A stretch of 64,000 nt of DNA. Origin: Sipunculus nudus (lineage: Eukaryota > Annelida > Sipuncula > Golfingiida > Sipunculidae). The position numbers and the translations under genes are program-made. Position 1 is the first letter of the stretch. Every line of letters begins with the position of its first letter. The DNA lies in contig CM049317.1 of the NCBI GenBank assembly GCA_026874595.1, forward strand, positions 1,169,108 to 1,233,107, written 5' to 3'. The notes under the pieces were generated by a model that was not told where the DNA came from, did not search any database, and worked only from the letters and a program-made list of their open reading frames with translations. Below, one piece after another: positions 1,329 through 63,536 of the stretch.

Positions 1329-1380
<52 letters not shown>

Positions 1381-2105: not shown

Positions 2106-2130
2106 AAAAAAAAAAAGAAAAAAAAAAAAA

Positions 2131-3664: not shown

Positions 3665-5860
3665 ATAGACTCGGTCGTAGCCTCGTGGCTGATGCATTAG
3701 TTATGGAGCCGAATGGTCATGGTTAAACCCTAAATACTGTCTCCAAGGCAAAATGCTTAGAGTTTCGCCCTGATGTCTTCACGACAATTTTTACCGCGTT
3801 ATTCACAACCCCATGCCTACAAATATTCTTAATTTGGTCTAAAAGACCAAATTACATGTATTTTATCATGTCATTCTCTTTCATTAAACAGTTTCATCTT
3901 CAGGGAGGCAATACTAAGAAACGTAATATCTACGCAGACCAGTGGGCCCTCCTGGTCACAGATTTGTACAAAATCATGAACTAAAGTTACAGTGTACCTA
4001 TTATAGAATGAAAACTAGTCAAAAATAATACTCGCATAATCATATCTTCCAAAAATTACGTTTATATGTTGTTGGCTTCTGTGCAAATTTATCATCAGAT
4101 TCCAGCTATTTGTTAAAATACATTATTAGGATAGGTAAAATGACAGGATACCTTAAACCTGACAAACCTACCGTGTTGTATGATGTTTCAGACATAGACC
4201 CTGAACAGAACGTGTTGTGTATCTAGAGACAATCAGAGGAGTAGCTCGTCCATTGTCAATTAATTTTATCCAAGGAGCTAGAGTTTTTTTGTGGAATAAG
4301 ATCCGATCACATTACATCAGACCTGGCATGCCAGAATCAATGTTCTGTGTTTAATATTCATCCATGTGTTAGAAATAAATTTTAAAAATAATAGAATGAA
4401 AAAAAAAATAGAATGAAGTGACTAAACATGTTGTATATTTAGTCACGGATATGTGTGTCAAAGGCCATACCGCCAGACTCAAGCCAGAGGCATATCAAGA
4501 TTGGAATAATAAATACAAAGAGGCATTTTCTACCACACGGGATAAATGTTTGTCTACCTTGGACTGCAAAAATGGTTACTTAAATTTGACGAGGTTCAGC
4601 TCGCTCTAATACGATCAAACAAGCTGGGTGTTTTACATGATCGGTATATCAAATAAAGCCAAGCCAAACAGAAAGTGAGGCGGAATTAGGTGAAACTACC
4701 TTACATCTCCATATACCATGAATTTCGGAATTTGGTATAAATAGATATCACAATTTTCATTAATTAACAAAGATGCATCAAATTTGTTTTTAAAGCAAAG
4801 ATGTGAAATTGTGAATTAGGATGAACCCTAGACATATTTATTCAAGTGGGTCTGAACTGGTCCCTGTACAAAAGACTGTGTTTTCTATAAACTAAATGAA
4901 TTCCATGCAGACAGCAAAACTGCTTGCACCGTCATATGGGGTTGTCATCCAGAAAAAAGTGGCCAAATGTAAAACGATCTTATATCCTAGAACCCAGAAT
5001 AGAACCGGTACAAGAAGTATCCCTTAACGTTGGTGAAATAACGTTATATCCTAGAACCCAGAATAGAACCGGTACAAGAAGTATCCCTTAACGTTGGTGA
5101 AATAAAGATACAAATGATTGATGGACTAAACATTATGATTCTACGTCATAACATTAAGCACAGAAAGTAGACCCCGCCTTGAACTTAGATTAAATGGAAC
5201 ACAGATCACTCAATGGTAGGTTCTCAAACTGATCCCTGACCAAGAAAACTCAGGTTTAGCAAATAAATTTGACCATATATTTAAGTGTTTGAAAAATATA
5301 GTGGAGAAATTAGGTGCTACCGCAATGACTGCCGTAATTTGCATTTTAAAAGTATAGAAAAACTGAACATCAGGCATTCTGGCTGATGGTCTTTTAATAT
5401 TCTTTGACCATGAAAAACTTTCTAGATTCTTTGTTTGTCCAAATAAAATGAAATGGTGTCCAACTTTTTTTTAAGAAAGTAGAATTTACATCAATGACAT
5501 CAATCAAATATACATATTAATATTCAGCTTAACCATCGTTCACACGGTTTAATTTGAATCTTTGACCATAAAACATAGGTCTTGACACAATGTTTAACCA
5601 TTTATCATGGTTAGTTCTTGATAATGTGGGAAAAGGTAGAATTTTCATCAATGGCGGCCCTAACTTGCATGTTGTTTTTTAATATACGAACTAAACCGTT
5701 GCCATGATAGTTTGAACGTTCGACCAATGATCATGGATGGTTCTTGCTTTATATAAGTTCTTGAAATATTGACAAAAGTAAATTTTCATCATTGGTGGCC
5801 CTAATTTGTATATTACAAAAAACTGGTCGTAGTGAGGACAGCCCACCTCAAAAGAATCAG
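3665..5860 (+). mobile_element. Large non-coding dispersed repeat, copy A
   Basis: This block is homologous, in inverted orientation, to 35480-40250. Matching landmarks in the same order are: the gccctgatgtcttcacgac block (3768) with its counterpart near 40180; gggccctcctggtcacag (3944) with 39995; aatgacaggatacctt (4139) with 39755; gatccgatcacattacatca (4302) with 39590; the gcaaaactgcttgca block (4915) with 38875; and tattatgattctacgtcat-like sequence (5133) with the array at 37.9-38.7 kb. From about 5380 to 5860 it carries degenerate subunits of about 170 bp with the motif catcaatggcggccctaa. No protein is encoded. The left end (3668-3735) resembles a tRNA, with A-box-like tggctgatgcatt and B-box-like ggttaaaccc. 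This could be a non-autonomous Helitron-like (pearl/HINE type) or tRNA-headed element; the class is not settled. Confidence 0.75.
4980..5105 (+). repeat. 64-bp tandem duplication inside copy A
   Basis: Two nearly identical head-to-tail copies with a 64-bp period (4980-5043 and 5044-5105). The corresponding segment in copy B, around 38740-38830, is single, so the duplication is specific to copy A. Confidence 0.9.
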
Positions 5861-7449
5861 TTGACCCCCAGTATCACAAATCCATAAACAACCTTGTACT
5901 TTAGACAATTAATAGGTACCCCGTACTGGCAATTCGACTAATAGGTTTGATTGAAGATACAGAAATCTGGAACTCGCTATGAGTTGCTTGGTCAAAATAG
6001 TTTGGTGGAGCATAATGTTGTAGCGAATAATTATTTAATAAGATTACCAGGACTTACCAGAACCAGGACCAAGGGAATTATCAAAAACGGTGTACTCTAT
6101 ATAAGAGAAAATTAATTTGGCTAATTCTCTATAAGGAACAAGAAATAAGAAATGCGAAAACTGATGCAATACCACAATATACCCGAGTCATATCTATGTT
6201 GCCAGTTGTAACCAGTAAGTTGTAAATATTAACAAACAAGGCAGGGGAACCTGCAGAGTTTTGTTATTTTATGACGAAATCGGTTAATGAATATATGTCA
6301 TGTTTTATTAATATAATAACTGTGTTAACCTCGAAGAAAAGACAGAAACCTTACGCTCGAACTGTTAATCGTATAGTACATTGACTTTTCTTATATATTT
6401 TATATATTTTGTAAATTTTTAAAATTTATTTTGTCTGTAATGTCTAACATTTATGAAGACTGACCATGTTATATTCTTGTACCCGATATTATGTGTTCTC
6501 AATAATCCCTTTTTGCAACAAAGTGTTTTCCAACCCTAAATAACATTCAGTTTTTTTGCGGAGAATAGATATAAATGAGTCCGTTTAATCTCTGCCATGA
6601 TTATTGCGACAGTTTGTCAATAAACATTACTTTATTTCATGATATCACTTGTCTGCCTGAAATGGTGTAGTTTCACTCCAGATTAACATCAGTTTGCCAC
6701 CCAAACGTCGATATATTTCTAGAGATAACTATCTAGAGGGTGGCAGAATTATAGACCAGACAATCAGACTTCTTTGTTACTGTCATACGAAAGTCTTGCA
6801 TCTCTATCTTATCCTACTGATTGTCCTAACAGGGTTCGTGCGCGGTCTTACAAAGTCTTACAAAGTCTTATTTTTCATTTTGCAAAAATAAGGCCTTACA
6901 AAGTCTGATGTCCTTAGAAATATTTGCTTTGAATTAAATACTCGCTTATTTTATTATTTTTAACAGAAGAAAATGTGGTCCCTGGTGTGCACTCATGCAG
7001 GCAAGACATGCTTTACATGGAGATCACAAATTGGTAATTTAATACAGGAACTAAGTGAGTCACATTTACAAAAGTTGGTTTAAGTTTTATCAGTGAACCA
7101 TTGATACCCTGTCAAAATTTTGTAACCAAGTGTAGAGTATTTTTGGAGAAATTTCGTCCTTTTTCGGTTTTTGGTTTCCAGTAGGGAGGGGAAATTGAGT
7201 ACAGTATTGTGAAGGGGGATTACAGGCTGAATACTTGGGAGTGTCAATGCTCCAGTGGGCACTGAGGCCTGCTAAAACAATGCACACCAGGTAACACGAC
7301 AGGTACCCATTGACCCTTGTCACAATGTTGTGTTGAACCAGGGTAAGCTTGGGCCAATGCATCGACTATAGGAGGTAATGTGGTAATTTGGTTTGACTGG
7401 TACTAGTGAAATGTAGCGTTATCTTTTCTCAGTATGTGATTAACAGAAT
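5861..7449. other. Unassigned spacer and possible LINE 5' UTR
   Basis: No host gene recognised. A block at 6832-6905 (gttcgtgcgcggtcttac followed by repeated acaaagtctt) looks like the edge of another dispersed element, but no partner end was found. The stretch just before 7450 may be the 5' UTR of the LINE that follows; its start could not be placed. Confidence 0.45.
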
Positions 7450-8742: not shown

Positions 8743-8743
8743 T

Positions 8744-8950: not shown

Positions 8951-8959
8951 GTAGCCGCT

Positions 8960-10603: not shown

Positions 10604-11160
10604 TGAACAGTTGGAGGGGAACCCCTATTGTTTAGGGGGTGTTCCGTGGCCGGGTGGGCTTGGGAACAGGAGGTCACAGAGCAAACGTGGCGGTACCGAC
10701 AGGAAGGTCCATACTTACAGTTGCCCCGATTAAAGGCTAGACAAATTTCAAGACCGGTGATGGGATCAATGGGTACTTTCGGCCCATTAGTTGTAGGGGT
10801 GGGGTAGCCACTTTGAGGTTTAGAGGGTCTCTGTTGTTTACTGAAGTTGAGGGCGGTTGATCTTTGATGCAGATGTGTTTTTGGCTGGAGCCACACCCGA
10901 TTTAGGGTAGGGATTTCACGGCCCCATTGGCACCTTAATTTTGCCTGTTCCCTCCTAAAGCTGTCATCAAACAAGATGACATCTACCCATATGTATTGGT
11001 GGGCTAGGTCAGTGACGTTTACTAGGTACGCCAGGTAGTCCGAAATTTGGCTACTTGGAAGGTCCCTTGTGGTAAGCAGTTTATCAAGGATTTTTAGTGA
11101 GACCGCAAACCATTGTTCTTTGGTAACATTTTCTAGCTTAGGCTTTTTTGTTTTTGCATC
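10504..11160 (-). pseudogene. DIRS gag-like ORF1, C-terminal part with CCCH zinc finger
   Basis: The open frame extends upstream of the first usable start; codons up to about 11160 read ENVTKEQWFAVSLKILDKLL and onward, in frame with the part starting MFDDSFRREQ. A CCCH-type zinc finger (C-x7-C-x5-C-x3-H, residues 78-96 counted from that methionine) lies near the C-terminus, as in the nucleic-acid-binding ORF1 of molluscan DIRS/Ngaro elements. The frame ends inside the start of the reverse-transcriptase frame. Confidence 0.7.
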
Positions 11161-23493: not shown

Positions 23494-23814
23494 GCCTGCG
23501 ACCCCTGGGTCCATTGCTCTATCGTACTACCTAGGAACCGAAAACGGCCTGCGACCCCTGCGTCCATTGCTCTATCGTACTACCTAGGAACCGAAAACGG
23601 CCTGCGACCCCTGGGTCCATTGCTCTATCGTACTACCTAGGAACCGAAATCGGCCTGCGACCCCTGGGTCCATTGCTCTATCGTAATACCTAGGAACCGA
23701 AATCGGCCTGCGACCCCTGGGTCCATTGCTCTATCGTACTACCTAGGAACCGAAAACGGCCTGCGACCCCTGGGTCCATTGCTCTATCGTACTACCTAGG
23801 AACCGAAAACGGCC
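23494..23814. repeat. 53-bp tandem repeat, six copies, tRNA-like unit
   Basis: Six nearly identical units starting gcctgcgacccctgggtcc, with only scattered substitutions. On the minus strand each unit reads ggtagtacgatagagcaatg and later gggtcgcagg, which resemble tRNA D-arm and T-arm sequence. Confidence 0.9.
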
Positions 23815-31655: not shown

Positions 31656-32395
31656 GTAAGGGAGAGGGCTGCTTCTCTTACAACCGCTCGACGTATCTAG
31701 TGTTTTCTTTGATATTAATATCTCATTCAATTTTCATTGAATTTTCAACCTTCAGGAGCGGACAGGTAAGGGAGGGAGCTGCTTCTCTTACGACCGCTCG
31801 ACGTATCTAGTATTTTCTTTGATATTAATATCTCATTCAATTTTCATTGAATTTTCAACCTTCAGGAGCGGACAGGTAAGGGAGAGGGCTGCTTCTCTTA
31901 CAAACGCTCCATGTATCTAGTATTTTCTTTGATATTAATATCTCATTCAATTTTCATTGAATTTTCAACCTTCAGGAGCGGACAGGTAAGGGAGGGAGCT
32001 GCTTCTCTTACGACCGCTCGACGTATCTAGTATTTTCTTTGATATTAATATCTCATTCAATTTTCATTGAATTTTCAACCTTCAGGAGAGGACAGGTAAG
32101 GGAGAGGGCTGCTTCTCTTACAAACGCTCCATGTATCTAGTATTTTCTTTGATATTAATATCTCATTCAATTTTCATTGAATTTTTAACCTTCAGGAGAG
32201 GACAGGTAAGGGAGAGGGCTGCTTCTCTTACAACCGCTCGACGTATCTAGTGTTTTCTTTGATATTAATATCTCATTCAATTTTCATTGAATCTTCAACC
32301 TTCAGGAGAGGACAGGTAAGGGAGAGGGCTGCTTCTCTTACAACCGCTCGACATATGTAGTATTTTCTTTGATATTAATATCTCATTCAATTTTC
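31656..32395. repeat. 110-bp tandem repeat, seven copies
   Basis: The landmark gcttctctta recurs at 31671, 31781, 31891, 32001, 32111, 32221 and 32331, an exact 110-bp period. Two alternating variants are visible, cgctcgacgtatctag and cgctccatgtatctag. The last unit diverges after its first two thirds. Confidence 0.95.
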
Positions 32396-32696
32396 TTTGT
32401 CTTTTTAACATTTACAAGAATAATTATCGAATTCAGAGTAAGTCTGTTAGGTGTGTGTGTGTGTATTTAAGTATACATCACAAAACACAAAACAGGCAAA
32501 TAGCTCTTATTAGGAGACAATATCAAGCTCGTTATGAGGAGGCGGACAAACAGATTGGTGGAGCCTATATTTACTGAATGTGATATTTTGTATGACATGG
32601 TCTTTCATGTTTCGTATATATTTAAAAAAAAAAAAAAAACGGAATGTGTTACCGCTGATGGTAAGGTCCTATTAACAACAGGCTTTTAGGTCGATT

Positions 32697-34192: not shown

Positions 34193-34242
34193 TTTTCACG
34201 GTCGCTAAAAGAGTCGGGTCAGCTAGACGTGTAACACTAAAG

Positions 34243-34428
34243 GGCCAGATCCACTGGTCATACGGCCGGCCGATGTAGAGGTCGTACGAGTGCCGTGCAA
34301 GATTCTTACGTTCATCCGCGTTAATGAATCTAAACACCGCGCCGATTTCATAAAACCGCCCCGATTTTCTAAAACCGGACCGATTTTACTGAAAGCGTGT
34401 GTATGCCGTGCGAGTCAATAATTAGATA
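34243..34428 (+). repeat. GC-rich repeat, copy 1
   Basis: Begins cggccggccgatgtagaggt and ends tgccgtgcgagtcaat; CpG-rich against an AT-rich background. A diverged direct copy lies at 34745-34892. Confidence 0.6.
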
Positions 34429-34744
34429 TTAATTTTACTAGCAGGCGCCATTGTGATATTTGAAAGGTGTCTGGGTAATCTTTGGGTGCTGTGATAATAT
34501 GCAAGAGTTTGTAGGTCAAATCAGGTCTCACATGGGCTCCTACCTTTCGTTTTGTTATGCATCTTTATGTTCTGATATCGCTGGATAACCCATTTGTAGA
34601 TTGTAATAAAAATGCTGATCCTGACATGATATTATATTTCTAAGAAATACTGATGTCCATTGACCCGCTTTGAGGTCGAACAATTAGATAACATGTGATT
34701 TTGCAGTTAACCTTTTTTTCATATGAGGGGCTTTAAAGTTGCTC

Positions 34745-34892
34745 ATCAGCCGGCCGATTTAGACATCGTGCGACAGCCGCGCCGGATTTCCAGTCATCCG
34801 CACGGGTATCGCAGCAGTGGATCTCAGCGCCGCGCCGGTTTATTTGGAAGGACCAAGTCGTGCGGGCGTCGTGCGAGTCAATCAAAACTTTT
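34745..34892 (+). repeat. GC-rich repeat, copy 2
   Basis: Shares the opening gccggccgatttagacatcg and closing cgtcgtgcgagtcaatc with copy 1, about 500 bp downstream in the same orientation. Confidence 0.6.
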
Positions 34893-35479
34893 TATTTAAT
34901 CGGCCCGGCTCAGGCCGTTAAATACTAATAGAGTCATGTAAAACTGCAAACTGTTCAAAACCATTTGAGATTTATTCCTGATAACAGGCAACTCAAATTT
35001 GTAAAACTGTTCAACATAAACGAAATTTGTGGTAGCAGTTCCTAAATCCCATTTAAATTCTCTCCATCTGAGGGATCTCAAATGAATTATTAAATTGCAA
35101 GAAAATTCCTGTATGTAAATGAATAATTTTTATTTTATATTTATGGTAAAATGTAAAGGAAAATGTTCAAAGGTGATCATTGGACCCTTGTTTTCTATAA
35201 TGTTGCCCGAATTATTCTTCTGAGAGAAGAAAGCAAGGATACATACGGCGGTATGCTCAACATCCAAAAATAGAGGTCATGGCAAACGACAGGAGAACAG
35301 TACTCGCCTCTGCTCAGTTGTAAGTTTATACACGGTATTTTTGGATCCATCATACCTGCTCTTCAGCCACTCCCTCATCCAGATTCTCCTCTTTTTTTTC
35401 GTCTTGTCAATTCGAGCCTAGCAGTCAACAGGATAGTCGAGTTGCCAGTAGGGGGTACCTATGAATTGTCTATAATACA
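34893..35479. other. Unassigned non-coding DNA
   Basis: Nothing recognised between the GC-rich repeat and dispersed repeat copy B. Confidence 0.45.
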
Positions 35480-36189
35480 AGGTTTTTTGATAGATTTGTA
35501 ATGGTAGGGGTCCACTGATATTTTTGAGAAGGGTTGTCCACACGACGACCTAGGGCAATTTTTGTAATATGCAAATTAGGGCCGCCATTTACAAAAATTA
35601 TATTTTCTTCGATATCTTAAGAACAAACCATGACAATTGGTCGAATATGGTATCTAGACCTTGGTTTCCATGGTCAAAGAAGAAAATAAAACCATAATAG
35701 GAACGGTTTAGTGGGTATTTAAAAATTTAATATGCAAATTTCGGCCGACATTTATGTTAATTCTACCTTTCCTAATATCTTAACAACTAACCATGATAAC
35801 TGGCCAAATTTTTTGTCTAGAACTTCGTTTTCCTGATAAAAGAGTCAAGTGAAGCCATATTTATACGGTTAAGTTCATATATCAAATTTATATTTGCAAA
35901 TTGGGCTCGCCATTGATGAAAATTATACTTTCCTCAAAATCTGTAAAACTAACCACAATAATTGGTCGAACATAGCAGTAGAGCTAGGTTTTCATGGTCA
36001 AAGATTTAAATGAAACCATGTGAATAATAATTTAACTGAACTTTAATATGCAAATGTAGATGCATTGGATGGAAATTTTACTTTCCTGTATATCCGAATA
36101 GATAAATATTGGAAACCGTTTAATAACATTTGGACACGCATGGGATCTAGAAATTTAAATGGTTACAGATTGTTAGAGACTATCTAAAC

Positions 36190-37560
36190 AGATGCCTGAA
36201 AGTCATCTGAGCTATAGCGAACACCCTTTGTCCGACGTCCGTCCGTCTGTCTGTCAAACCGTCTGTCCGTCCGTTTACCAGGCACAAATCGTAACCGCTG
36301 GTCCTCGAATCTTCTAACTCAATATCCAGAGAGGTCCATGAAAAATCACCTTGATACAAAAGTATCTATACGAATAAAGCATTGATCACCGTGATTCTTT
36401 GAATGGATATTGATCATTAAATGTTTCATCAGTTTCTGCAGATTTGTGGCGCCACTTGTCTTTTATTCATTTTTTTACATTTTTTTTTCTCTATTTTTGA
36501 GACCTTAAAAGATGCCTCCATCTGTTAACAGGGCACAAATCGTAACGACTGGACTTAGAATCTTTTTTCTTAAGATGAACGGAGGCCCATGAAAAGTCTC
36601 TTTGGAAACCTAAAATTAGGTCTCTGTTACCCAAAACCTCTGAGCTATGGGGCTTCGAAGTACTCGCCAGAATAATGGAAATTTTATACAAAAGCTCAAG
36701 TATCTGAACACCTAATGCATTGATATCCATGATTCTTTCCATGGATATTGGTCATGGAACGTTTCATCAATTTCTGTAGACTAGTGGCGCCACCTGGCTT
36801 TTTAATTTTTTTTTACAGAAATTTTCCTCTATTTTTAACCTTTAATGATGTGGTCTTCTGTTAACAGGGCTCACATCGTACTCACTGGACCTCGAATCTT
36901 CCAACTTGAAATCAAGGGAGGTCTATTGAAAGTCTTCAAAGATACCAGAAACTAGGTCTATGTTACCCATATCTTCGTAGCTATCGGGCTCAGAATTAGC
37001 GGCCAAAAAATTAAGAATTGGATACAAAAGCTCAATTATCTGAACAACTAAAGGATTGATCACCATCATTATTTGCTTGCATATTGTTCGTGGGGTGTTT
37101 TATCATTTTCTGCAGACTTGTGGTGCCACCAGGTTTTATAAAAATCGTTAAGAATTTTTTTTCTATACTTTTGAAACCTTTTAAGAGGAAGTCTTATGTT
37201 AACATAGCACAAATCATAACCGCTTTACCTAGAATCTTATAACTTGAAATCCAGGGAGGTCCATGAAAAGTCATTTTGGAAACCTGAAATAAGGTCTCTG
37301 TTACCCATATTCACCAAGCTATGGGGCTTATAAGCACCCCCCAGAATAATTGAAAATTTGATACCAAAGCAAGGCACAAATCATAACCATTGGACCTAGA
37401 ATCTTCTCACTTGACTTACTGAAATTTCCTCAAATGTTCTACTCAGAAACCTAAAATTAGCTCACTGTGGCCTTTATTCTCTACATTACAGTCCATGTTT
37501 GAGCACCCCAGAAGGTTTCTCACTAATAGCTGGATAGAATGTCATCAAATTTGGTGTGCT
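36190..37560. repeat. Degenerate ~340-bp repeats inside copy B
   Basis: The block around cacaaatcgtaacc and ggacctagaatctt recurs at about 36270, 36516, 36860, 37197 and 37370, with spacings of 246, 344, 337 and 173 bp. The short spacings suggest partial units. Confidence 0.7.
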
Positions 37561-37863
37561 CATGGGTCTTGATGAACATGAGTTAATATGCATGAACTAT
37601 GATGCCACCTACATTACTTTAATTAGTTGCCTGTGCAAGGAAATATTGTCAACATGTCAGTCGGCTGGGCGTCATGAACCATGTATCCCTTTTTTATTTT
37701 TAAAATGCAAATTACGGCAGCCATTGCGGTATAACCTATTTTCTCCAATATATATTTAAAATACTGATAAGTGGTCAAATATATTTGCTAAACCTGAGGT
37801 TTCCTGGTCTGGTGTCATTTTGAGAAGCTAGCACTGAGAGATCTTTAAAACATTTAATCTAGG

Positions 37864-38733
37864 AGAAAGACGATGTGTACTTTATATGCTTAATACCATG
37901 ACGTAGAATCATAATGCATTAAAGACTTTATGTACTTTATATGCTTAATACCAAGACATGGAATCATTATGTATAAAAGACTGTGTACATTATATGCTTA
38001 ATACCACGACGTAGAATCATAATGTATAAAAGACTATGTGTACTTTATATGCCTAATACCACGACGTGGAATCATAATGTATAAAAGACTATGTGTACTT
38101 TTTATGCTTAATACCATGACGTAGAATCATAATGCAGAAAAGACTATATGTACTTTATATGCTTAATACCAAGACATGGAATCATAATGTATAAAAGACA
38201 GTGTACTTTATATGCCTAATACCACGACGTAGAATCATAATGTATAAAAGACTATGTGTACTTTATATGCCTAATACCACGACGTGGAATCATAATGTAT
38301 AAAAGGCTATGTGTACTTTTTATGCTTAATACCACGACGTAGAATCATAATGTATAAAAGACTGTGTACTTTATATGCCTAATACCATGACGTAGAATCA
38401 TAATGTATAAAAGACTATGTGTACTTTATATGCCTAATACCACGACGTGGAATCATAATGTATAAAAGGCTATGTGTACTTTATATGCTTAATACCACGA
38501 CGTAGAATCATAAAGTATAAAAGGCTATGTGTACTTTATATGCTTAATACCACGACGTAGAATCATAATGTATAAAAGACTGTGTACTTTATATGCCTAA
38601 TACCACGACGTGGAATCATAATGTATAAAAGGCTATGTGTACTTTATATGCTTAATACAACGACGTAGAATCATAAAGTATAAAAGGCTATGTGTACTTT
38701 ATATGCTTAATACCACGACGTAGAATCATAATG
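37864..38733. repeat. 53-55-bp tandem array, 16 copies
   Basis: Sixteen units, each with taataccacgacgtagaatc or a close variant, then ataatgtataaaagac. Units 2, 6, 9 and 13 are 53 bp, the others 55 bp. Units 1-4 match units 5-8 in order, a four-unit higher-order repeat. Variant units contain CCACGACGTGG, a palindrome around one central base. Copy A has a single unit (about 5115-5165, opposite strand). Confidence 0.95.
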
Positions 38734-40329
38734 AAGACGTTGCATCAATCATTTGTATCTATAATTCACCAATTGTAATGGATATTTCCTTTTGGGGCTT
38801 TCTTTAACATAAAATATCGAGTATACAGCCTTTGGCCACTCTTTCTGGGTGACAATCCCATATGACAATGCAAGCAGTTTTGCCATCAGTATGGCTTTCA
38901 TTTAGTTTATACACGGACCAGTTCAGAATCACTTCAAATAAATATGCCTTGACGTTTATCCTTATTTACAATCTCACTTCTTTCGCTTTATATGCAAATC
39001 TGATATATCTTTTGTCCATAAAAGAAAAATAACAGATATTTTCCTTATTATTTTTATGAATTGGGTTGGAACAGCAAGTCTGACGATATCATAACACCAT
39101 AAAGTCCTTTATCTAAGGTCAAAAGTTCCAATTAACTAAGATATCTAATCATCATTATAAATGGTTGTATACATGGTGAATATGATTGGACAATGATATA
39201 TGTTCATACCAAATTCTAAAATGTATGGCACATGGAAATGTAAAGTAATTTTACTTGATTATATTTTTTTTTCACCTATATCATCATTACATTATAATAC
39301 CGATCATATAAAACAACCTGCTTGTCGGATCGTAATATAAGCTACCATATTTGCAGTCCAAGGTAGACCAACATTAATCGAGGCTTTGTGGTAGAAAATG
39401 CCTATTTATATATTATGCCTATCTTGATATGCCTGCACCTACAGTCGGGCGGTTTGGCCTTTGACCAACATATATTCGTGTCTAAAATGTACTACAGTGT
39501 ATGATTAATCTTCTGGATTTCTAAAACAGCGATGACTATTCAAAACCGAGCATTAATTCTAGCCTGCCTGGTCCGATATAATTTGATCGGATCAGGAAAA
39601 CCCTTTTTATTTTATGAAAAAAAAATTTCTCCTCAGATGAAAAAAAAAAAAAATAATTGACAGTTGGTGAGCTGCTCTTGGTCTTGTGATGAGGTATAAA
39701 TTCTATTAGGGTTTATGTCTAATGCATCAAAGCAAATTTGTCGGGCTTAAATATCCTGTCATGTTAACCTATCCTGATAATATATTGTTACAAAGTGCAG
39801 GCATCAAATGCTATATATAATGTGAACAAAAGCTAACAATATACAAACGTGATCTTTTGGAAGTAAAATAATACCAACTTTTTTTTCAAACATAATTGTT
39901 TTTAGTATTTACACTGACATCTTTCCATAATGATTATTCTAAATTGCTTTGAAGGATAAATTTTTGTTTGTGATCTGGGTAAAATCTGTGACCAGGAGGG
40001 CCTACTGGTCGAATATATTATGTTTCTTATGATTATCGCGAAACGGAGAGGGAACTTTGCATTGAAAGAGAAAGACATGATGGAAAGACATTTAATTTGT
40101 TATTTTAACTAATTTAAGAATATATGAATTTATATGCGCGGGGTTGTGAATAACACGGTCATAATCTGTCTTGAAGACATCAGAGCGAAGGTCTCGAGGC
40201 ATTATTGGAGATTGAATCGTGACCCTTCGGAAACTAAAAACTTATGCCCTATCTAATTAACGTGATTCATGTTTCTAACTGATATATTAAAGAAATGCTC
40301 TTTCTTTAAGGACAGCCTACATTTGTATA

Positions 40330-40790
40330 TTAAAATCTAATTTTTTTAATCAATAACCGTGAAAACCTTGGTCTTGATATAATTTGTAACTAAATATTAG
40401 GATAAGTTCCTTTGATAGTGCGGAAGATTATCTGAAGTGTTTTATCCGATGGTCTTTTAAAAATCCTTGGCATGAAAACCTAGGATCTGTTGGACCAGTT
40501 ACCATGGTTTCCAGCTGAGGTATTAAAAAAAGGTGGTTTAATCAATGGGGACCCTAACTTGCATGTTAAATTTGTAAACACGGACTAAACTTTTGCTAAC
40601 ATGGATTCTTTTGAAGCTTTGACCATGAAAACCTTGGTCTTCACCTAAAGTTCGTCCAATTATCATGCTAAGATCTGGATTAAAGAAATAGAATCTTCAG
40701 CAATGGCGGCCCAATTAGCATATTAATATTTAAAATTACGGACTTAAAATTCCCTAAATAAATAATCAAATGACACGCATTTCTATAACC
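40330..40790 (+). repeat. Large dispersed repeat, copy C (partial)
   Basis: In the same orientation as copy A, matching its ~170-bp subunits: tgaaaaccttggtcttgata, gggaccctaacttgcatgtt and caatggcggccca recur in order. It starts about 80 bp after copy B ends, so B and C lie head to head. Confidence 0.65.
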
Positions 40791-45606: not shown

Positions 45607-48157
45607 TCACATGGCACGTTTTCGGGTTTTCTTTATGGCAAAGTCATCAATTAAGTCATCAAAATTGACTGCACTGACAATTTCAGTTTCAATGCTCATC
45701 AGGGAGAGCATACTTAGTCTCTGCTGCTGCATACAACTTCTGACTTCACTCTTTATTCTCTTCAACTTGGAGAAAGATCTCTCGCCACTGCAGTTTGACG
45801 TAAGCATACACAGATAGATACGGAGTGCAATGTGCACATTGGGGAAGCTTTGTGCACAATTTGTTTCATTAAGCAGCAACAGCATTTTTAGCTCTGGGGT
45901 TTGTTCCGTGCATTGCGTTGAGGTGTGTCCCTGTTCACTCACAGATTTAAAAAGTTCTACAAACTGAACTAACTCATTAGGGAAGCAGTCTTCAAAATCA
46001 GTTGGGTAGTCTTTCATCAAGTTTTTTGCTGCTTCTTGGGTTGCTTCACTGTCTAGCTCAGTCAAGTTTGAGAGAAATCCAAATTTCATCTCAACTTCTT
46101 GATATGCCTCTAAGCGCTGGAGAAGGGCTGAAGTCATTTTGTCAATGATAGGGAGAAACACCTCAACCCTGAACTTTTCTCTGGGCGAGAGAACTGTTTC
46201 GGCGGAGGGTCCCTCATCAAATTGTCGCTTTCTCTTCTTTTGCCGTTTGGATGATTCTTTGTACTCTTTGTCCACAGACTTTACCTTTCCCTTTTCTTCA
46301 TAACGCTCGAATTCAGAACGCTGACCTTTTACAAACTCCAGAAGAGATTTCAACAAGTTAACTGCGGAGTTAAGAGACAATCCACTCTCTTGGAGGGACA
46401 AACTTGTTTTCTGGAATCGCTCCAGGATTGTGTCCCACAATTCCAGCAGGATTGTGACTTCGAGTTGCTTAAGGTTTTTTCAAAAATCCTTCGGCCTCAA
46501 GTCTGCTTTCTCTTGGTTGATTTTCGTCAGTTGCTAGATCTTCAAGTGCTGCAATGTTCTCGTTGTAGCCTCTACTTACGGCCCTAACAGCATCGTGTCG
46601 CGCTGACCATCTCGTGTCAGACAAAGCTTTGTTCACAGGTAAACCTTTCAGGTGAGTTCGATGTACCTGCCAACGATGTGTAGAGGCGACAAGCCAAGCA
46701 TAAAGGCTCTGCAGAAGATAAAAAAATCCGGCTGCGACAGGACAACTTTCTGCTGCACCCTTCCCAACTAAATTCAGGGAATGTGCTGTACAAGGTACGT
46801 AATGAGCAACACTGGCCCTCTGACGAAGAACAGCCTGGACGCCTTTATACTTCCCGCTCATGTTTGCAGCGTTGTCGTATGACTGTCCACGGCAATCTTG
46901 TATGTTTATGCCATGTTCATCCAAGAAATTTAGGATGATATTGGCAATTTCAGACCCTGTGTGAGAGTACATTGGTATAAATTTAATGAATAGTTCAACC
47001 GGACCAGACTTCAGAACATAGCGGACAATAACCGTCAGCTGGTCTACATGCATGACATCGGGGGTGGAGTCTACAGATATGGAGAAGTACTTTGCGGATT
47101 TGATTTCATAAATGATCACAGAGAGTACTTTTTGGCCCATCAACTGAATTACTTCTTCACAGATTGTTGAAGACAGGTATGACGCGTGTCCACGTCCCTT
47201 GTTTGCATGCTTACTGATGTGCTCTGCAAGAAATGTGTTATATTGACTCAGTAATTCAAGTATACCAAGGTAGTTACCGTTGCTAGGAGAGCCAATAAGT
47301 TCATTCTTGCCACGAAACGAAAGACCACGAATGCAAAGGAATTGTACAACGCTGACTATTCTCTGGAGAACTTGTTTCCAATATTTGACCTCCATGTCAT
47401 ATTGCTTCACTAGATCACAGTCGATTTGACCAGTTGCTTTTCGCGCACATAATGCTTCCATCGCATCAAGATGCTGTTTCGAGTTTTCATGTTTTGAAAG
47501 CTGTTCATGAGCATGTTTCCAATCATTGAAGCCGCTTGTAAGCTTACTCACCACAGATGACATTAACTTGCACACAAAACAATAAACACGACCACTGGTT
47601 TTAGAATAACATAGCCAATTTCTGTCGAACTGTTCTCCTGTCCGTGCATGAACACGTGTAAACAAGGCTGAAGTACAATACCGGCGCTGTGACTCCTTCT
47701 CCCTCTGTACCATCGATTCTTTAAATCCTTCATCTTTATGTTGACAAGAAGATGACCCACGCTGAATCCAGTAATTTCGCAGATTTTCTGGTAGTTTGTC
47801 TGGCCAAAGATGGAGATCAGTAATACAATCATCGTTAAGAGGTTGGGGAGTCTTCCTGTCACCTTCAGTTATCAAATCAGTGTCCGCCGTTGATACAGAA
47901 GGCTTTTCCACGTCTTCTCCTGTAGAAGTCGTACCCGCCTTTTTAACAGAAGGCTGTCCCGCGTCTTCTCCTGTAGAAGTCGTACCCGCCTTTGTTATAG
48001 AAGGCTGTTCCACGTCTTCTCCTGTGGAAGTCGTGGACGTAGCTGGTTTAAAGAATGATGTTAACTTTGGAGTCTTTTCTGTAATCTCACTCTCTCGTTT
48101 CTTCTTTTCAGAGGCAGCTGCACGTTTTTGTGCTCCACTCAGATAATTACGCTGCAT
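45607..48157 (-). pseudogene. hAT transposase (TTF zinc finger, DUF4371, hAT dimerisation), one frameshift
   Basis: Two frames, 48157-46469 (562 residues) and 46440-45607 (277 residues), form one transposase of the ZMYM1-like/DUF4371 kind. In order: a basic N-terminus; three tandem 17-residue repeats of the TTSTGEDVEQPSITKAG type (about residues 43-93); a TTF-type zinc finger (C183, C193, C196, with histidines near 215-229); catalytic aspartates at D363 (SVDSTPD) and D428 (SYDNAANM); CTAH (456-459); DTRW (514-517). The second frame carries the hAT dimerisation block NCSGERSFSKLKRIKSEV at residues 216-233. The break is a run of six A at codons 559-561; five would keep the frame through LEVTILLELW. 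No other stop is seen. Confidence 0.92.
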
Positions 48158-49780
48158 TACTTATCTGAAATGAAAATGAAGTGATTCATATAAAACAAGT
48201 ACTGAACAGCAAATGGTCGCTTAGCAGCTTGATAACAAACTGACATTACTCTAATAGTCGTTTATTACCCAGAGAAGAAAAAAAACTGGCACCTATAGCA
48301 CAAATGAACAGAATCAGGGACAGGATTTGCCGATTTGGCCTTCATTTGCAAAAAAGGAGCGGACAAAGAGGGGAATCAAAAAACAAATAATTATGTTTAC
48401 ATGGCCTAACTATACAAGTGAACAATTAACATTTTTTGTTTGGCCTAACGTTTGTGTTCCTACCCAAAGCATTTTTTTTTGTTTGGCCTAACGTTTTTGC
48501 TCCTACATAATGCTTCACCCCAACCAGACTAGAGTCGGATTAACAATTTAACACCTGACGCTTGGCGGCCTTGGCCTGTTTGTTAACAATCAATCCGCTA
48601 CCAGTGAATAGAAAAAAACAATAAAAACATCCTTAGTATACCTTACCTTCAGTGTTCCGAACGAACTTGGCGTAAAATCCATAAAAGTTCAGCGGTTCAG
48701 CAATCACCTCCTGCCGCCTGCATACGGAAATGTTACAAGTCGCAAGTGTACCCGTTACTTTCTCCAAAATAATTTATTCGACCATTCTCTTCGCAGATTT
48801 TGAAATTTATTTGAATTATTTCGTTGAGACAACTTCAGACAAGTACAAAAACTCAAGAAGATCGACTGTTCATAATTTCTTAAGTGACATCGCTGATATG
48901 ATTCAAGAAAGATAAAAGTGAAATTCTGAAATGCGAAGAATCACTTTCAGCAAATACTTATAGCTGCCCGCCCGCCCAACACGTTCTCGTCCTAAAATAT
49001 GCACGGTAATTAATGCAGACAACGGGTGCGAACGTGGATTTGTCATGGTCTCCTATACAGAGACAGTGTATAATATAATTATTTTTGGTATTTAACAGGT
49101 AATGCCAAGACGAGTGATAAGCACATTCATAAATTAGTTGGAAATTAGAAACAATCACATAGAAACAGAATACAGCAATTAAAACACTGGTCCCAAGTTA
49201 CTTCGCGCCAAAAAGACGCGTTTTGTCGGTAGCTCAAACGTTTGAAGATGCTTAGTATATCTGACATGTATACTTTGCAAACGCATTTCCACCATTACGC
49301 ATGCATATCTCGTGTCTGAAAAACTTGGTTGTCAGTTATCTTGCTGTCTTGACTAATTATTGTGTGTGTGTAGGTGCGTGAGTGTGTTAGTATGTGTGGT
49401 GGTTCACCAGGGAAGGGGGGGGGGGGGGGGAGGGGGGGGGGGAGGTGAGCTGAATGCCACACGACAGTACCACATCTGGTCAGTCAAAGCTCACGCTCAA
49501 TCTTAGGTTTTATTATGAAACGGCTTTTTATTATCGAGTATTGACAGACCTACAGTATTGTCATTTTGTCAAGGGGGAAGGTATTTTGAAAATGTCAATA
49601 TTAAATCAATTTAAATGTTTTGGGTTTCATCCGCCCGCACCGCAATAATGACAATCGGTATCTGTCCTTGTTTATCAAATAAATCTAGCAATAAATTTGT
49701 TTTACACACATTTTTTTTTTCTTAAATTTGGGGGCCCCCCTAACAGCGGGGGCCCCTGGCTGCAGCCCCTTCAGCCCCCC
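48158..49780 (-). other. Transposon 5' region, non-coding
   Basis: Lies upstream of the transposase start inside the hAT element and would hold its promoter. It has repeated tttggcctaacgttt at 48440 and 48481, and G-runs at 49415-49442 split by a single A. No exon was recognised. Confidence 0.55.
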
Positions 49781-49809: not shown

Positions 49810-50388
49810 TAGTCTTGTAACTGGCATGAAGCAAACATGACCTGGCCATCGAACATGAGATCGACGCGAGATGGTGTAGATTGATGGGAGGTTGGCACGT
49901 GTTAGGGCCTCAGTGTCTGTAACTTTGTCTTGCCATCTAATGTTGATAAGTCGACGGAGGCAGCAGGTGAAAGTGGTTCAGTTGTTTGGCATGTCTTGCA
50001 TTGACAGTCCATGTCTCGCAGCCATACAGCAGGGCTGTGATGACTACTGCCCTACAGACCTGGATCTTGGTTTCATGATGGATGACGTTGGAGCAGAGTC
50101 TACCAAAAGCAATGCTGGCTTTTGCTACACTGCTGTTGAACTTGTCATCTATGTTAACTGTCTTTGGCAATGTGCTCCCCAGATATGTGATTTTGTCCGG
50201 CACTTTCAGAGCTGATCCATGCACCATGATGGACAGTTGATCTTATTGCTTTCCTGGTGCTGGTTGGTGCATCACTTCAGTTTTCTTTATGCTGATGGCA
50301 AGCCCGAAGTTGTCACATGCAAGGAAAAACTGGTCCATATGGTGCTGCATGTCTGATTCTGAAGATGCATTCAGGGCGCTTCTTGAAC
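49810..50388 (-). pseudogene. LINE reverse-transcriptase C-terminal part
   Basis: From 50388 downward the text reads FLACDNFGLAISIKKTEVMH, a stop, then VPDKITYLGSTL, KASIAFGRLCSNV, TALLYGCETWTVNARHAKQL and, after a frameshift, RWQDKVTDTEALTRANLPSI. These are the blocks after the catalytic motifs in this LINE family; the catalytic core is missing through truncation. Confidence 0.82.
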
Positions 50389-52098
50389 TGTTCTTACGGC
50401 CAGGTGTTTATGGGGATACACAAATGGTCTGTCATACACTAAACTGAAACGTTCTCACGGTCACGTGTATACGGGGATACAAAAATAACACTGACCTGAA
50501 ATGTTCTCACGTCCAAGTGTATACGGGGATACACAAATAATCTATCATTCACTAACCTGAAATGTTCTCACGGTCACGTTTATAAGGGGATACAAACATA
50601 ACACTGACCTGAAATGTTCTCACGGCCAAGTGTATACGGGGATATACAAATAATCTATCATTCACTAACCTGAAATGTTCTCACGGCCATGTGTACACGG
50701 GGATACACAAATAACACTAACCTGAAATGTTCTCACGGCCAAGTCTATACGGGGATACACAAATGGTCTGTCAAACACTAAACTGAAATGTTCTCACGAT
50801 CACGTGTATACGGCGATACACAAATAACACTAACCTAAAATGTTCTCACGGCCAATGTATACGGGGATACACAAATAATCTATCATTCACTAACCTGAAA
50901 TGTTCTCACGGTCACGTTTATACGGGGATACAAAAATAACACTGACCTGAAATGTTCTCACGGCCAAGTGTATACGGGGATAAACAAATAATCTATCATT
51001 CACTAACCTGAAATGTTCTCACGGCCATGTGTATACGGGGATACACAAATAGTCTATCATTCACTAACCGGAAATTTTCTCACGACCAAGTGTATACGGG
51101 GATACACAAATAACACTAAACTGAAATGTTCTCACGGCCAAGTCTATACGGGGATTCACAAATGGTCTGTCAAACTCTAAACTGAAATGTTCTCACGGTC
51201 ACGTGTATACGGCGATAAACAAATAACACTAACCTGAAATGTTCTCACGGCCAAGTGTATACGGGGATACACAAATGGTCTATCATACACTACACTGAAA
51301 TGTTCTCACGGTCACGTGTATACGGGGATACAAAAATAACACAGACCTGAAATGTTCTCACGGCCAAGTGTATACGGGGATACACAAATGGTCTATCATA
51401 CACTAACCTAAAATTTTCTCAAGGCCAAGTGTATACGGGGATACAAAAATGACACTGACCTGAAATGTTCTCACGGCCAAGTGTATACGGGAATACACAA
51501 ATGGTCTATCATACACTAACCTGAAATGTTCTCATGGCCATGTGTATACGGTGATACAAAAATAACACTGACCTGAAATGTTCTCACGACCAAGTGTATA
51601 CGGGGATACACAAATGGTCTATCATACACTAACCTGAAATGTTCTCACGGCCATGTGTATACGGGGATACAAAAATAACACTGCCCTGAAATGTTCTCAC
51701 GGCCAAGAGTATACGGGGATACACAAATGGTCTATCATACACTAAACTGAAATGTTCTCAAGGCCAAGTGTATACGGGGATACAAAAATAACACTGACCT
51801 GAAATGTTCTCACGGCCAAGTGTATACGGGGATACAAACATAACACTGACCTGAAATGTTCTCACGGCCAAGTGTATACGGGGATACACAAATGGTCTAT
51901 CATACACTAAACTGAAATGTTCTCACGGTCACGTTTATACGGGGATACAAAAATGACACTGACCTGAAATGTTCTCACGGCCAAGTGTATACGGGGATAC
52001 ACAAATGGTCTATCATACACTAACCTGAAATGTTCTCAAGGCCAAGTGTATACGGGGATACACAAATGGTCTATCATTCACTAACCTGAAATGTTCTT
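50389..52098. repeat. Minisatellite of alternating 61- and 52-bp units
   Basis: About 30 units. Both types share gttctcacgg, then tgtatacggggatac, and end cctgaaat. The long type continues acaaatggtctatcatacac; the short type continues aaaaataacactga. They often alternate, giving a 113-bp dimer, but runs of one type occur. Confidence 0.95.
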
Positions 52099-55974: not shown

Positions 55975-58900
55975 CGGCGACAGTGTGAAATAGGACCTAT
56001 AGGAGCTCTGTGACGAAGTATATATGAGTGAAACATCGCTGTTGTGAACAAGAATCTATAGGAGCTCAGCGACAAGGTAGATGTGAGTGAAACATCGATA
56101 GTGTGAACAAGGAACTGTAGGAGCTTAGTGACAAGGTACATGTGAGTGAAACATTAACAGTGTACACAAGAATCTGTAGGAGCTCAGTGATCAGTTAATT
56201 GTGAGTGAAACATCAATAGTGTAAACAAGGACCTATAGGAGCACAGTGACAAGGTACATGTGAGTGAAACATTGATAGTGTGAACAAGGACCTGTAGGAG
56301 CTCAGTATCAAGGTAGATGTCAGTGAAACTTCGACAGTGTGAACAAAGACCTGTAGAAGCTTAGTGACAAGGTACATGTGAGTGAAACATTGATAGTGTG
56401 AACAAAGACCTGTAGGACCTCAGTGACCAGTACTTGTGAGTGAAACATCAATAGTGTGAACAAAGACCTGTAGGAGCTTAGTGATCAGGTAATTGTTAGT
56501 GAGTGAAATGTCGATATTGTAAACAAGGAGCTGTAGGAGCTCAGTGACCAAGTACTTGTGAGTGAAACGTCGATAGTGTGAACAAGGACCTGTAGGAGCT
56601 CAGTGACAAGTGAGATGTGAGGGAAACTTCGACAGTGTTAACAAAGACCTGCAGGAACTTAGTGACAAGGTACATGTGAGTGAAACATTGATAGTGTAAA
56701 CAAAGACCTGTAGGAGCTTAGTAACAAGGTAAATGAGAGTGAAACTTCGGCAGTGTGAACAATACCTGTAGTAGCTCAGTGACAAGGTAAATGTGAGTGA
56801 AACTTCAACAGTTTAAACAAAGACCTGTAGGAGCTTAGTGACAAGGTAAATGTGAGTGAAACTTCGGCAGTGTGAACAAGACCTGTAGGAGCTCAGTGAC
56901 AAGGTAAATGTGAGTGAAACTTGGACAGTTTAAACAAAGACCTGTAGGAGCTTAGTGACAAGGTACATGAGAGTGAAACTTCGATAGTGTGAACAAAGAC
57001 CTGTAGGAGCTTAGTGATCAGGTAATTGTTAGTGAGTGAAATGTCGATAGTGTAAACAAGGAGCTGTAGGAGCTCAGTGACCAAGTACTTGTGAGTGAAA
57101 CGTCGATAGTGTGAACAAGGACCTGTAGGAGCTCAGTGACAAGTGAGATGTGAGTGAAACCTCGACAGTGTAAACAAAGACCTGCAGGAACTTAGTGACA
57201 AGGTACATGTGATTGAAACTTCGATTGTGTGAACAAGGACCCGTAGGAGCTCAGTGACCAGGTAAATGTGAGTGAAACTTCGACAGTGTGAACAAAGACC
57301 CGTAGGAGCTCAATGGCAAGGTACATGTGGATGAAACATTGATAGTGTAAACATGGACCTGTAGGAGATCAGTGACCAGGTACTTGTGAGTGAAACATCG
57401 ATAGTATAAACAAGGACCTGTAGGATCTCAGTGACAAGGTAAATGTGAGTGAAACTTCGGCAGTGTGAACAAAGACCTGTAGAAGCTCAATGACCAGGTA
57501 CTTGTGAATGAAACATTGATAGTGGAAACAAGGATTTGTAGGAGCCCAGTGACCAGGTACATATGAGTGAAACATTAATAGTTTAAACAAGGACATATAG
57601 GAGCTCCGTGACCAGGTACTTGTGAGTGAAACATCGATAGTGTGAACAAGGACCTGTAGGAGCTCAGTGACAAGGTAGATGTGAGTCAAACTTTGACAGT
57701 GTGAACAGAGACCTGTAGGAGCTCAATGATAAGGTAAATGTGAGTGAAACTTCAACAGTGTGTACAAAGATCTGTAGGATCTAAGTGACAAAGTACTTGT
57801 GATTGAAACATTGATAGTGTGAACAAGGAACTGTAGGAGCTTAGTGACAAGGTACATATGAGTGAAACTTCGATATTGTGAACAAGGACCTGAGGGAGCT
57901 CAGTGACAAGGTAAATGAGCGTGAAACTTCGACAGTGTGAAAAAAGACCTGTAGGAGCTCAGTGACAAGGTAGATGTGAGTGAAACTTCGATAGTGTGAA
58001 CAAAGACCTGTAGGAGCTCAGTGAGAAAGTACGTGTATGTGAAACCTCGAGAGTGTGAACAAGGACCTGTAGGAATTCAGTGACCAGGTACTTGTGAGTG
58101 AAACTTCGACAGTGTGTACAAGGACCTGTAGGAGCTCAGTGTCCATGTGCATGTGAGTGAAACATTGATAGTGTAAACAAAGACCTGTAGGAGCTCAGTG
58201 ACCATGTGCATGTGAGTGAAACATTGATAGTGTAAACAAAGACCTGTAGGAGCTCAGTGACCAGGTACATATTAGGAAAAATACAGACTGTGAATAAGGA
58301 CCTGTAGGAGCTCAGTGACAAGGTACATTTGAGTGCAACCTCGACAATGTAAACAAAGACCTGTAGGAGCTCATTGACAAGGTACATGTGACTGAAACTT
58401 CGACAGTGTGAACAAAGGCCTGTAGGAGCTCAGTGACCAGGTACTTGTGAGTGAAACTTCGACAGTGTTAACAAGGACCTGTAGTAGCTCAGTGACCAGG
58501 TGCGTGTGAGTTAAACTTTGACAGTGTGAACAAAGACCTGTAGGAGCTCAGTGGCCAGGTACGTGTGAGTGAAACATGGATAGTGTGAGCTAGGATCTGT
58601 TGGATCTCAGTGACAAGGTAGATGTGAGTGAAACTTCGATAGTGTGAAAAAAGACCTGTAGGAGCTCAGTGAGAAAGTACATGTATGTGAAACCGCGATA
58701 GTGTGAACAAGGACCTGTAGGAGCTCAGTGACCAGGTATATATTAGGAAAAATAGAGACAGTGTGAATAAGTACCTGTAGGAGCTTAGTGACAAGGTACA
58801 TGTGAGTGCAACATCGACAGTGTAAACAAGGATCTGTAGGAGCTTAGTGACAAGGTACATGTTAGTGAAACATCGATAGTGTGAACAAAGACCTGTAGGA

Positions 58901-60724
58901 GCTCATTGACAAGGTACATGTCAGTGAAACATATATAGTGTGAACAAAGACCTGTAGGATCTCATTGACAAGGTACATGTGACTGAAACTTCGACAGTGT
59001 GAACAAAGACCTGTAGGAGTTCAGTGACCTGGTACTTGTGAGTGAAACTTCGACAGTGTTAACAAGGACCTGTAGGAGCTCAGTGACCAGGTACATGTGA
59101 GTGAAACATTGATCGTGTAAACAAAGACCTGTAGGAGCTCAGTGACCAGGTGCTTGTGAGTTAAACTTTGACAGTGTGAACAAAGACCTGTTGGAGCTCA
59201 GTGACCAGGTACGTGTGAGTGAAACATTGATAGTGTGAACTAGGACCTGTAGGATCTCAGTCACAAGGTAGATGTGAGTGAAACTTCGATAGTGTGAACA
59301 AGGACCTGTTGGAGCTCAGTGACCCGGTACATATTAGGAAAAATACAGACACTGTGAATAAGGACCTGTAGGGGATTAGTGACAAGGTACATGTGAGTGC
59401 AACATCGACAGTGTAAACAAGGATCTGTAGGAGCTCAGTGACAAGGTACATGTGAGTGAAACTTCGACAGTGTGAACGAAGACCTGTAGGGGCTCAGTGA
59501 CAAGGTACATGTTAGTGAAACATCGATAGTGTGAACAAAGACCTGTAGGAGCTCAGTGACAAGGTACATGTTAGTGAAACATATATAGTGTGAACAATGA
59601 TCTGTAGGAGCTCAGAGACCAGGTACATATTAGGAAAAATATAGAGAGTGTAAATAAGGACCTGTAGGAGGTTAGTGTAAAGGTACATGTAAGTGTAACA
59701 TCGACAGTGTAAACAAGGATCTGTAGGAGCTCAGTGACCAGGAACATTTGTGTGAAACATCGACAGTATAAACAGGGACCTGTAGGAGCTCAGTGACAAG
59801 GTACGTGTTAGTGAAACATCGATAGTGTGAACAAGGCCCTGTGGGAGCTTAGTGACAAGGTAAATGTGAGTTAAACTTTGACAGTTTGAAGAAAGACCTG
59901 TAGGATCTCATTGACAAGGTAGATGTGACTGAAACTTCGACAGTGTGAACAAAGACCTGTAGGAGCTCAGTGACAAGGTACATGTTAGTGAAACATCGAT
60001 AGTGTGAACAAGGACCTGTAGGACCTAAGTGACAAGGTACACGTGAGTGAAACTTCGACAGTGTAAACAAGGACCTGTAGGAGCTCAGTGACAAGGTACG
60101 TGTTAGTGAAACATCGATAGTGTGAACAAGGCCCTGTGGGAGCTTAGTGACAAGGTAAATGTGAGTGAAACTTCGACAGTGTGTTCAAGGACCTGTATGA
60201 GCTTAGTGACAAGGTACATGTGAGTGAAACTTCGACAGTGTAAACAAGGACCTGTAGGAGCTCAGTGACAAGGTAGATGTGAGTGAGACTTCGACAGTGT
60301 GAACAAAGACCTGTAGGAGCTCAGTGACAAGGTACATGGTAGTGAAACATCGATAGTGTGAAAAAAGACCTGTAGGAGCTCAGTGACAAGGTACATATTA
60401 GGAAAAATATTGACAGTGTGTATAAAGACCTGTAGGAGTTTAGTGTAAAGATACATGTAGGTGCAACATCGACAGTGTAAACAAGGATCTATAGGAGCTT
60501 AGTGACCAGGAACATTTGTGTAAAACATCGATAGTGTGAACAAAGCCCTGTAGGAGCTTAGTGACAAGGTACATGTGAGTGAAACTTCGACAGTGTGTAC
60601 AAAGACCTGTATGAGCTTAGTGACAAGGTACATGTGAGTGTAACTTCGACAGTGTAAACAAGGACCTGTAGGAGCTCAGTGACAAGGTACATGTGAGTGA
60701 AACTTCGACGGTGTGAACAAAGAC

Positions 60725-60727
<3 letters not shown>
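55975..60727 (+). repeat. Giant 59-bp minisatellite, about 80 copies
   Basis: Unit landmarks are gacctgtaggagctcagtga, caaggtacatgtgagtgaaa and cttcgacagtgtgaacaa. Copies differ by a few bases each. A recurrent variant replaces the middle with attaggaaaaatacagac. Minus-strand frames of 60-106 codons arise because all three frames of the unit are largely open; 59 is not a multiple of three, so the reading rotates through them. These are not genes. Confidence 0.97.

Positions 60728-60777
<50 letters not shown>
60727..60777. repeat. (TA)n microsatellite at the end of the minisatellite
   Basis: The last 59-bp unit stops after gacctg and runs straight into TA repeats. Confidence 0.95.
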
Positions 60778-62599: not shown

Positions 62600-63133
62600 T
62601 TTGTCATTGAGCTCCTACAGGTCCTTGTTCACACTGTCGATGTTTCACTCACATGTACTTTATCACTGAGCTCCTACAGGTCCTTGTTCACACTATCCAA
62701 GTTTCACTTACATATAGCTTGTCACTGAGCTCCTACAGGTCCTTGTTCACACTGTCGATGTTTCACTCACATGTAACTTGTCACTGAGCTCCTACAGGTC
62801 CTTGTTCACACTATCGATGTTTCACTCACATGTAACTTGTCACTGAGCTCCTACAGGTCCTTGTTCACACTATTGATGATTCACTCACATGTAACTTGTC
62901 ACTGAGCTCCAACAGGTCCTTATTCACACTATCGATGTTTCACTCACATGTACCTTGTCACTGAGCTCCTACAGGTCCTTGTTCACACTATCGATGTTTC
63001 ACTCACATGTATCTTGTCACTGAGCTCCTACAGGTCCTTGTTCACACTGTCGATGTTTCACTCACATGTACCTTGTCACTGAGCTCCTGCAGGTCCTTGT
63101 TCACACTCTGGATGTTTCACTCACATGTACTTT
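62600..63133 (-). repeat. 59-bp minisatellite, inverted block, nine copies
   Basis: The landmark gagctcctacaggtccttgt recurs every 59 bp from about 62609 to 63081. It is the reverse complement of the array at 56-60.7 kb and is more uniform than that array. Confidence 0.95.
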
Positions 63134-63146
63134 GTTACAAGAAAAA

Positions 63147-63196
63147 AAAAAAGACAGTGTGAATAAGGACCTGTATGAGCTTGGTGACAAGGTACA
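63147..63196 (+). repeat. Single 59-bp unit back in plus orientation
   Basis: gacagtgtgaataaggacct and gagcttggtgacaaggtac follow an A-rich tract, matching the aggaaaaata variant of the main array. Confidence 0.85.
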
Positions 63197-63536
63197 ATGA
63201 AATCTCATAATACCTCAAGTGATGGTCCAAGAATGTTTGGCGATACATTAATGTATTATAATAGAATTACCCTTAGCCGGGTTTTGGGCATTCACGGGGA
63301 TTCCTGCAATTGCATCCGGTAGATGGCGCTGTACTGTTCCTGTAGGTGATTCGTATGTTATGACCTTCTATGTGTAGTTTCAGGTTGGGCATACAACTCT
63401 AGCTTATTTTGACTGTGTTACGACCGGAAATTTTGTATAGAACATGTTTTTTTAGGAGAATTCCCAAAATGTGTGCCTTCAATCCTTAAGGATTGTCCTA
63501 TGTTGTTAGCGACATTTTGGCTGAAGGGTGGGTTGT
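63197..63536. other. Unassigned spacer
   Basis: No gene recognised between the last minisatellite unit and the Penelope-like fragment. Confidence 0.45.

Follow-up and report, generated by a model that had tools for sequence, protein, structure and literature searches.

A satellite-like array in Sipunculus nudus probably founded by one 55-bp duplication inside a non-autonomous transposon

A 64,000-nucleotide stretch of the Sipunculus nudus genome (assembly GCA_026874595.1, contig CM049317.1, positions 1,169,108 to 1,233,107; hereafter the window) contains two copies, A and B, of a transposable element that hold the same 55-bp unit once and 16 times, respectively. Comparison with further genomic copies makes it very probable that the arrays of this unit go back to a single founding duplication within the element, that copies with few units then spread, and that the arrays subsequently changed largely locally.

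The array in copy B was detected by TRF with a period of 55, 15.9 copies, 90% matches and a score of 1407, far above the reporting threshold of 50. Sixteen units were likewise obtained by cutting at a fixed motif and by a profile search, confirming the number, length and head-to-tail arrangement given in the original prediction. Additional TRF rows with periods of 163 and 218 cover the same span and point to blocks of three and four units. The single unit predicted at about 5115-5165 in copy A was also found, although it lies some 15 bp from that position (Table 1). Copy A is inverted overall relative to copy B, with 5131-5361 corresponding to 37916-37690 and 5078-5180 to 38788-38684 in the self comparison. 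Because the sequence on either side of the copy A unit matches both flanks of the copy B array, unit and array occupy the same site of the same element; in alignments, the flanks match the same element positions across copies. The motif AAGACG flanks the copy B array on both sides and was considered as a direct repeat seeding the duplication, a candidate rejected because, in the aligned copies, the right-hand occurrence is a change confined to B. Near the single unit of copy A, at 4980-5105, TRF reports a perfect tandem duplication of 64 bp (2.0 copies, 100%), which is a separate, recent first duplication.

The host element is dispersed, has inverted tips and carries the unit in its middle. 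Inverted tips AAGGGCCAGATCCACTG are present at both ends, most commonly in the form TAAAGGGCCAGATCCACTG, and the motif AAGGGCCAGATCCACTG occurs once in the window, at 34240, with up to three mismatches allowed. In L002 the element is about 8.8 kb long (338-9117), its 39-unit array counted in. The element is a non-coding, non-autonomous inverted-repeat transposon; a scan of seven fetched loci found no frame of at least 130 residues in six of them, and one of 189 residues in L001. Its tips resemble those of the hAT superfamily, which generates 8-bp target site duplications. No target site duplication was visible by eye in the four loci with both ends visible (L002, L003, L011 and L014), whose copies are old and diverged, and the six loci devoid of long frames offer no transposase-coding frame either. 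Helitrons and Helentrons lack inverted terminal repeats, a feature at odds with the inverted tips described here. A Foldback-type element would combine inverted ends with internal tandem repeats; here the tips and the ~160-bp subterminal repeats are inverted, but in L002 the stretch of roughly 1.2 kb that separates the two on the left is not. L004 has a rearranged end, carrying on its right side (7463-8426) the left-end sequence (34238-35383) in inverted orientation. Segment 37560-37700 of the window returned about 2,000 first-look genome candidates, far above the element middle, and on that number is probably common to another dispersed repeat.

Table 1. Coordinates of the element copies, their repeats and the 55-bp unit in the window.
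Feature	Position	Strand	Basis
Host element, copy B (with left tip, lacking right terminal part)	34238..40747	+	extent common with fetched copies
Left subterminal tandem repeats, ~160 bp	35565..36021	+	self comparisons
Subterminal repeat, inverted copy, right side	40490..40747	-	35565-35807 matches 40725-40490 inverted
338-bp tandem repeat, 3.0 copies, within element	36360..37370	+	TRF
16-unit array, copy B, units ~55 bp (53-55 bp), head-to-tail	37866..38733	+	TRF, unit cutting, profile
Copy A portion matching copy B	3764..5940	-	self comparison: 3764-4750 = 40189-39194; 5401-5940 = 36004-35434
Single unit, copy A	5131..5180	-	profile match, alignment

Elsewhere in the window, the intervals 55978-60729 and 62601-63200 are the site of an 80-copy array with a 59-bp unit, together with a 9-copy reverse-complement array and a short further match nearby, and further arrays lie at 31656-32412, 50384-52067 and 23494-23814 (units of 110, 113 and 53 bp). 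Two overlapping minus-strand frames at 45607-48160 contain DUF4371 and the C-terminal dimerisation region of hAT and represent a hAT-like transposase in two pieces; a link between these frames and the host element was rejected, as no tip of the element was found there. A reverse transcriptase frame (RVT_1) lies at 9395-10624 on the minus strand, and no known RNA family reached its gathering threshold within the window.

The assembly (1.43 Gb, 153 contigs) was searched with the array and with each flank. The array search returned 41 rows, from which the best 33 of 36 candidates were scored; the best 40 of 2,014 candidates were scored for the left flank and the best 40 of 145 for the right flank, so that, with 105 right-flank candidates unscored, the single-unit count is a lower bound. 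The census leaves out six array-search places (matches of 42-70 bases), four right-flank places, and left-flank rows matching just the first ~160 bases. Forty loci were fetched, which together with copies A and B gave 42 copies, with units called at a profile E < 0.01. Counting the unit across genomic copies, as the original prediction had proposed, gave one unit in at least 27 copies (27/42), several units in 12, and no detectable unit in three (L026, L028 and L034), which were excluded from the trees. Across the 39 copies with a unit, unit number spans 1 to ~1,870: the multi-unit copies hold two units (L008, L009, L010), three with one of them truncated (L007), five (L006), 10 (L005), 16 (copy B), 21 (L003), 22 (L004), 24 (L001), 39 (L002) and ~1,870 (C17; L021 and on).

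Within the arrays, inner units had their nearest neighbour in their own locus at a share of 0.80, compared with 0.157 for shuffled labels (maximum 0.25 of 500). This share was 1.0 in L004, 0.90 in L002, 0.88 in C17 (30 sampled units) and 0.80 in L003, and lower in B (0.70), L001 (0.61), L005 (0.46) and L006 (0.17, with three inner units). Since inner units are mostly closest to units of their own array, array growth appears to have been largely local, though the smaller arrays show this weakly. Offset peaks are clear at four units in B, six in L002 and three in L005, slight at five units in L003, and hardly above other offsets in L001, L004 and C17. A longer array might instead have formed once, spread by transposition or gene conversion, and later diverged at each locus, a scenario favoured by the mean unit identity between L001, L002, L003, B and C17, which nearly equals that within loci (for L001-L002, 0.934 versus 0.931 and 0.925 within). 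We regard this as unlikely, given the predominance of own-locus neighbours and the fact that the eight largest arrays differ in length, from five to ~1,870 units. Under largely local growth, the near-equal identities would be compatible with a few-unit array shared by these five loci before their spread.

Several observations bear on the earliest arrays. First units of different loci resemble one another (0.799) more closely than first units resemble last ones (0.731), suggesting a common first unit; last units, at 0.706 between loci, fall below the first-to-last value, so that a common last unit is unsupported by this measure. By eye, CCACGACG is common to seven of the 12 last units. The two-unit pairs L008-L009 and L008-L010 are each 4.6% apart, a close relationship indicating that two-unit elements spread. 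The three-unit L007 and C17 are sisters (97/94), 8.6% apart over 1,064 columns, and have common changes beside the last unit (by eye). A hairpin was considered and rejected, since shuffled sequences fold at least as well as the unit, its complement or a two-unit stretch.

In all 12 multi-unit copies the units are joined as TATA/AAAGAC (the slash marking the join), with the first junction of copy B mutated and its inner ones standard. This junction brings together sequences that lie apart in single-unit copies, those near the multi-unit copies in the tree having CTAGGAG or similar before the unit and TATAC after it. It is absent from 11 aligned single-unit copies, and no forward or reverse match to it was found in any single-unit locus. 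One junction in all 12 copies most likely reflects one founding duplication. In a tree of the flanks of 39 copies, all 12 fall within one 17-copy clade with support of 100/100, recovered at 100/100 on 24 chosen rows (L019 omitted for its long branch, other outside copies unused). This clade also includes five single-unit copies, L011-L015, which the trees place with weak support among multi-unit groups, requiring two changes; the multi-unit copies form one clade in 0% of 200 bootstrap trees. An AU test does not reject one multi-unit clade on the 24 chosen rows (p 0.065), nor on two alignment halves (p 0.177 and 0.073), the second of which kept 20/24 rows and the 17-copy clade at 88/91. L011-L015 may be unit losses, or may be poorly placed. 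The two changes in the best trees would also suit a first duplication that recurred between one pair of breakpoints rather than having a single founder. This is very unlikely, as the junction is identical in all 12 copies and the alignment reveals, by eye, no clear homology between the two breakpoints that would favour a repeat event.

The largest array, C17:4301465-4404228, extends over 102.8 kb and would contain ~1,868 units if every unit measured 55 bp. Direct counts at the two ends gave 143 and 37 units, 180 in all, and 10/10 interior samples (4312000 to 4402199) consist of units, in contrast to 10/10 samples beyond the array (4407000 to 4492199), which do not. The array start adjoins the right flank of the element (1,072 aligned columns), and its end is followed by 61 bases matching the left flank by eye, for which a filtered BLAST gave no row, after which another array, 42 bp x 25.1 (L062 2091-3145), starts where the left flank breaks off. 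C17 was found via the right-flank search, at 86-87% identity, and is absent from the array-search matches, presumably because its unit words were too common. The original prediction had pointed to large arrays of the same unit elsewhere as a check, and C17, with element sequence at both edges, is such an array. That array sizes, above all that of C17, are assembly artefacts is very improbable, as 84 distinct forms occur among the 143 C17 units and both edges run into other sequence.

A count of the junction pattern GAATCATAATGTATAAAAG over both strands of the whole assembly, allowing up to two mismatches, gave 146 forward and 1,955 reverse matches, with 70 and 51 for the reversed pattern used as control. 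Fetched arrays outside C17 supply 91 forward and 34 reverse matches, and C17 contributes ~1,837 reverse matches, as estimated from a rate of 177/180. With a background of 51-70, the expected totals are 142-161 forward and 1,922-1,941 reverse, leaving 14-33 reverse matches unexplained; the place of the reverse excess is derived from this accounting, not from listed positions. So small a remainder indicates that the assembly holds no second large array with this junction, in a count that diverged arrays would escape.

Outside the 17-copy clade, all 22 copies that the tree places, A among these, have one unit, and copy A has therefore not lost units. The possibility raised alongside the original prediction, that the family started out with several units and that single-unit copies such as A arose from this condition by loss, is scarcely credible: loss is plausible for L011-L015, inside the clade, but not in the face of these 22 copies and of a junction seen in none of the single-unit copies. 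The prediction that the array arose in B from an A-like one-unit state holds insofar as these outside copies support a single-unit ancestor. Copies A and B are, however, 20% apart over 1,392 compared columns, so that A is not the direct forerunner of B, and the founding duplication is common to all 12 multi-unit copies and was not born in B. Its broader claim, a direct view of satellite birth within a mobile element, is supported with the qualification that applies to the five single-unit members of the clade.

We propose that, in an ancestral copy of the element, a 55-bp stretch would have been tandemly duplicated once, possibly by slippage or end-joining, as breakpoints without clear homology suggest. 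Descendants with two or few units would then have transposed to new places, where unit number would have changed largely independently in each array. The array-specific units are observed; the process behind them may have been unequal exchange or slippage between in-register units, in blocks of several. Outcomes would range from two to ~1,870 units, the largest being the C17 satellite.

Satellites are known to grow from repeats inside transposons, as outlined in several reports (PMC4079207, PMC7492417, PMC12628747, PMC9659126), and the present case resembles Tetris and miDNA4 in its one homologous site, variable unit number and kb-size array. As described for Drosophila virilis, Tetris is a non-autonomous inverted-repeat element whose internal TIR-220 repeats vary in number and form kb-size satellite-like arrays, for which unequal exchange was proposed (PMC4079207). 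The Sipunculus element is alike in these structural respects but, unlike Tetris with its ~220 bp repeats in the terminal repeats, has its 55-bp unit in mid-element and still displays both the unduplicated site and the founder junction. In Xenopus, miDNA4 carries its internal repeat either as one monomer or as a variable-length array, and its authors (Scalvenzi and Pollet) suggest that a tandem repeat already in existence was captured, with flanking microhomologies (PMC12628747, PMC9659126). The internal repeat is likewise single or arrayed here, whereas one unit is ancestral and the junction has no clear microhomology. Xstir arrays, also of Xenopus, derive from the interior of a small element with inverted repeats, and Hikosaka and Kawahara, as cited in a later report, proposed a stem-and-loop mechanism (PMC12628747); tandem arrays arise from element-internal sequence in both cases, but the 55-bp unit shows no folding in excess of shuffles. 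Pacific oyster Helentrons include many copies with short variable satellite-like arrays, with units mostly of 140-180 bp and the longest array reported at 29.3 units (PMC7492417). Many copies of the present element bear arrays of varying length as well, although, in contrast to those rolling-circle elements, it has inverted tips, a 55-bp unit and up to ~1,870 units. Among the titles and abstract openings listed, none describes a founder junction together with graded arrays reaching 100 kb at a single site of an element. That satellites can come from transposon repeats is known; what is new is an unusually complete example.

Satellite beginnings are usually inferred from finished arrays. Here, a single genome preserves, at one homologous site, the unduplicated sequence, the founding junction, two-unit copies, intermediates and a 103-kb array, and the presence of all stages at one site of one element family makes both the succession of steps and the range of outcomes measurable. 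A single founding duplication is seen among the 39 copies with the unit, despite a family divergence of ~20%. It is possible, if doubtful, that satellite birth is slow at its first duplication and that growth is easy once founded, as nine of the 12 copies with the junction have more than two units and one reaches ~1,870; long arrays may in turn have stopped their carriers from spreading, as the closely related trio holds two units each.
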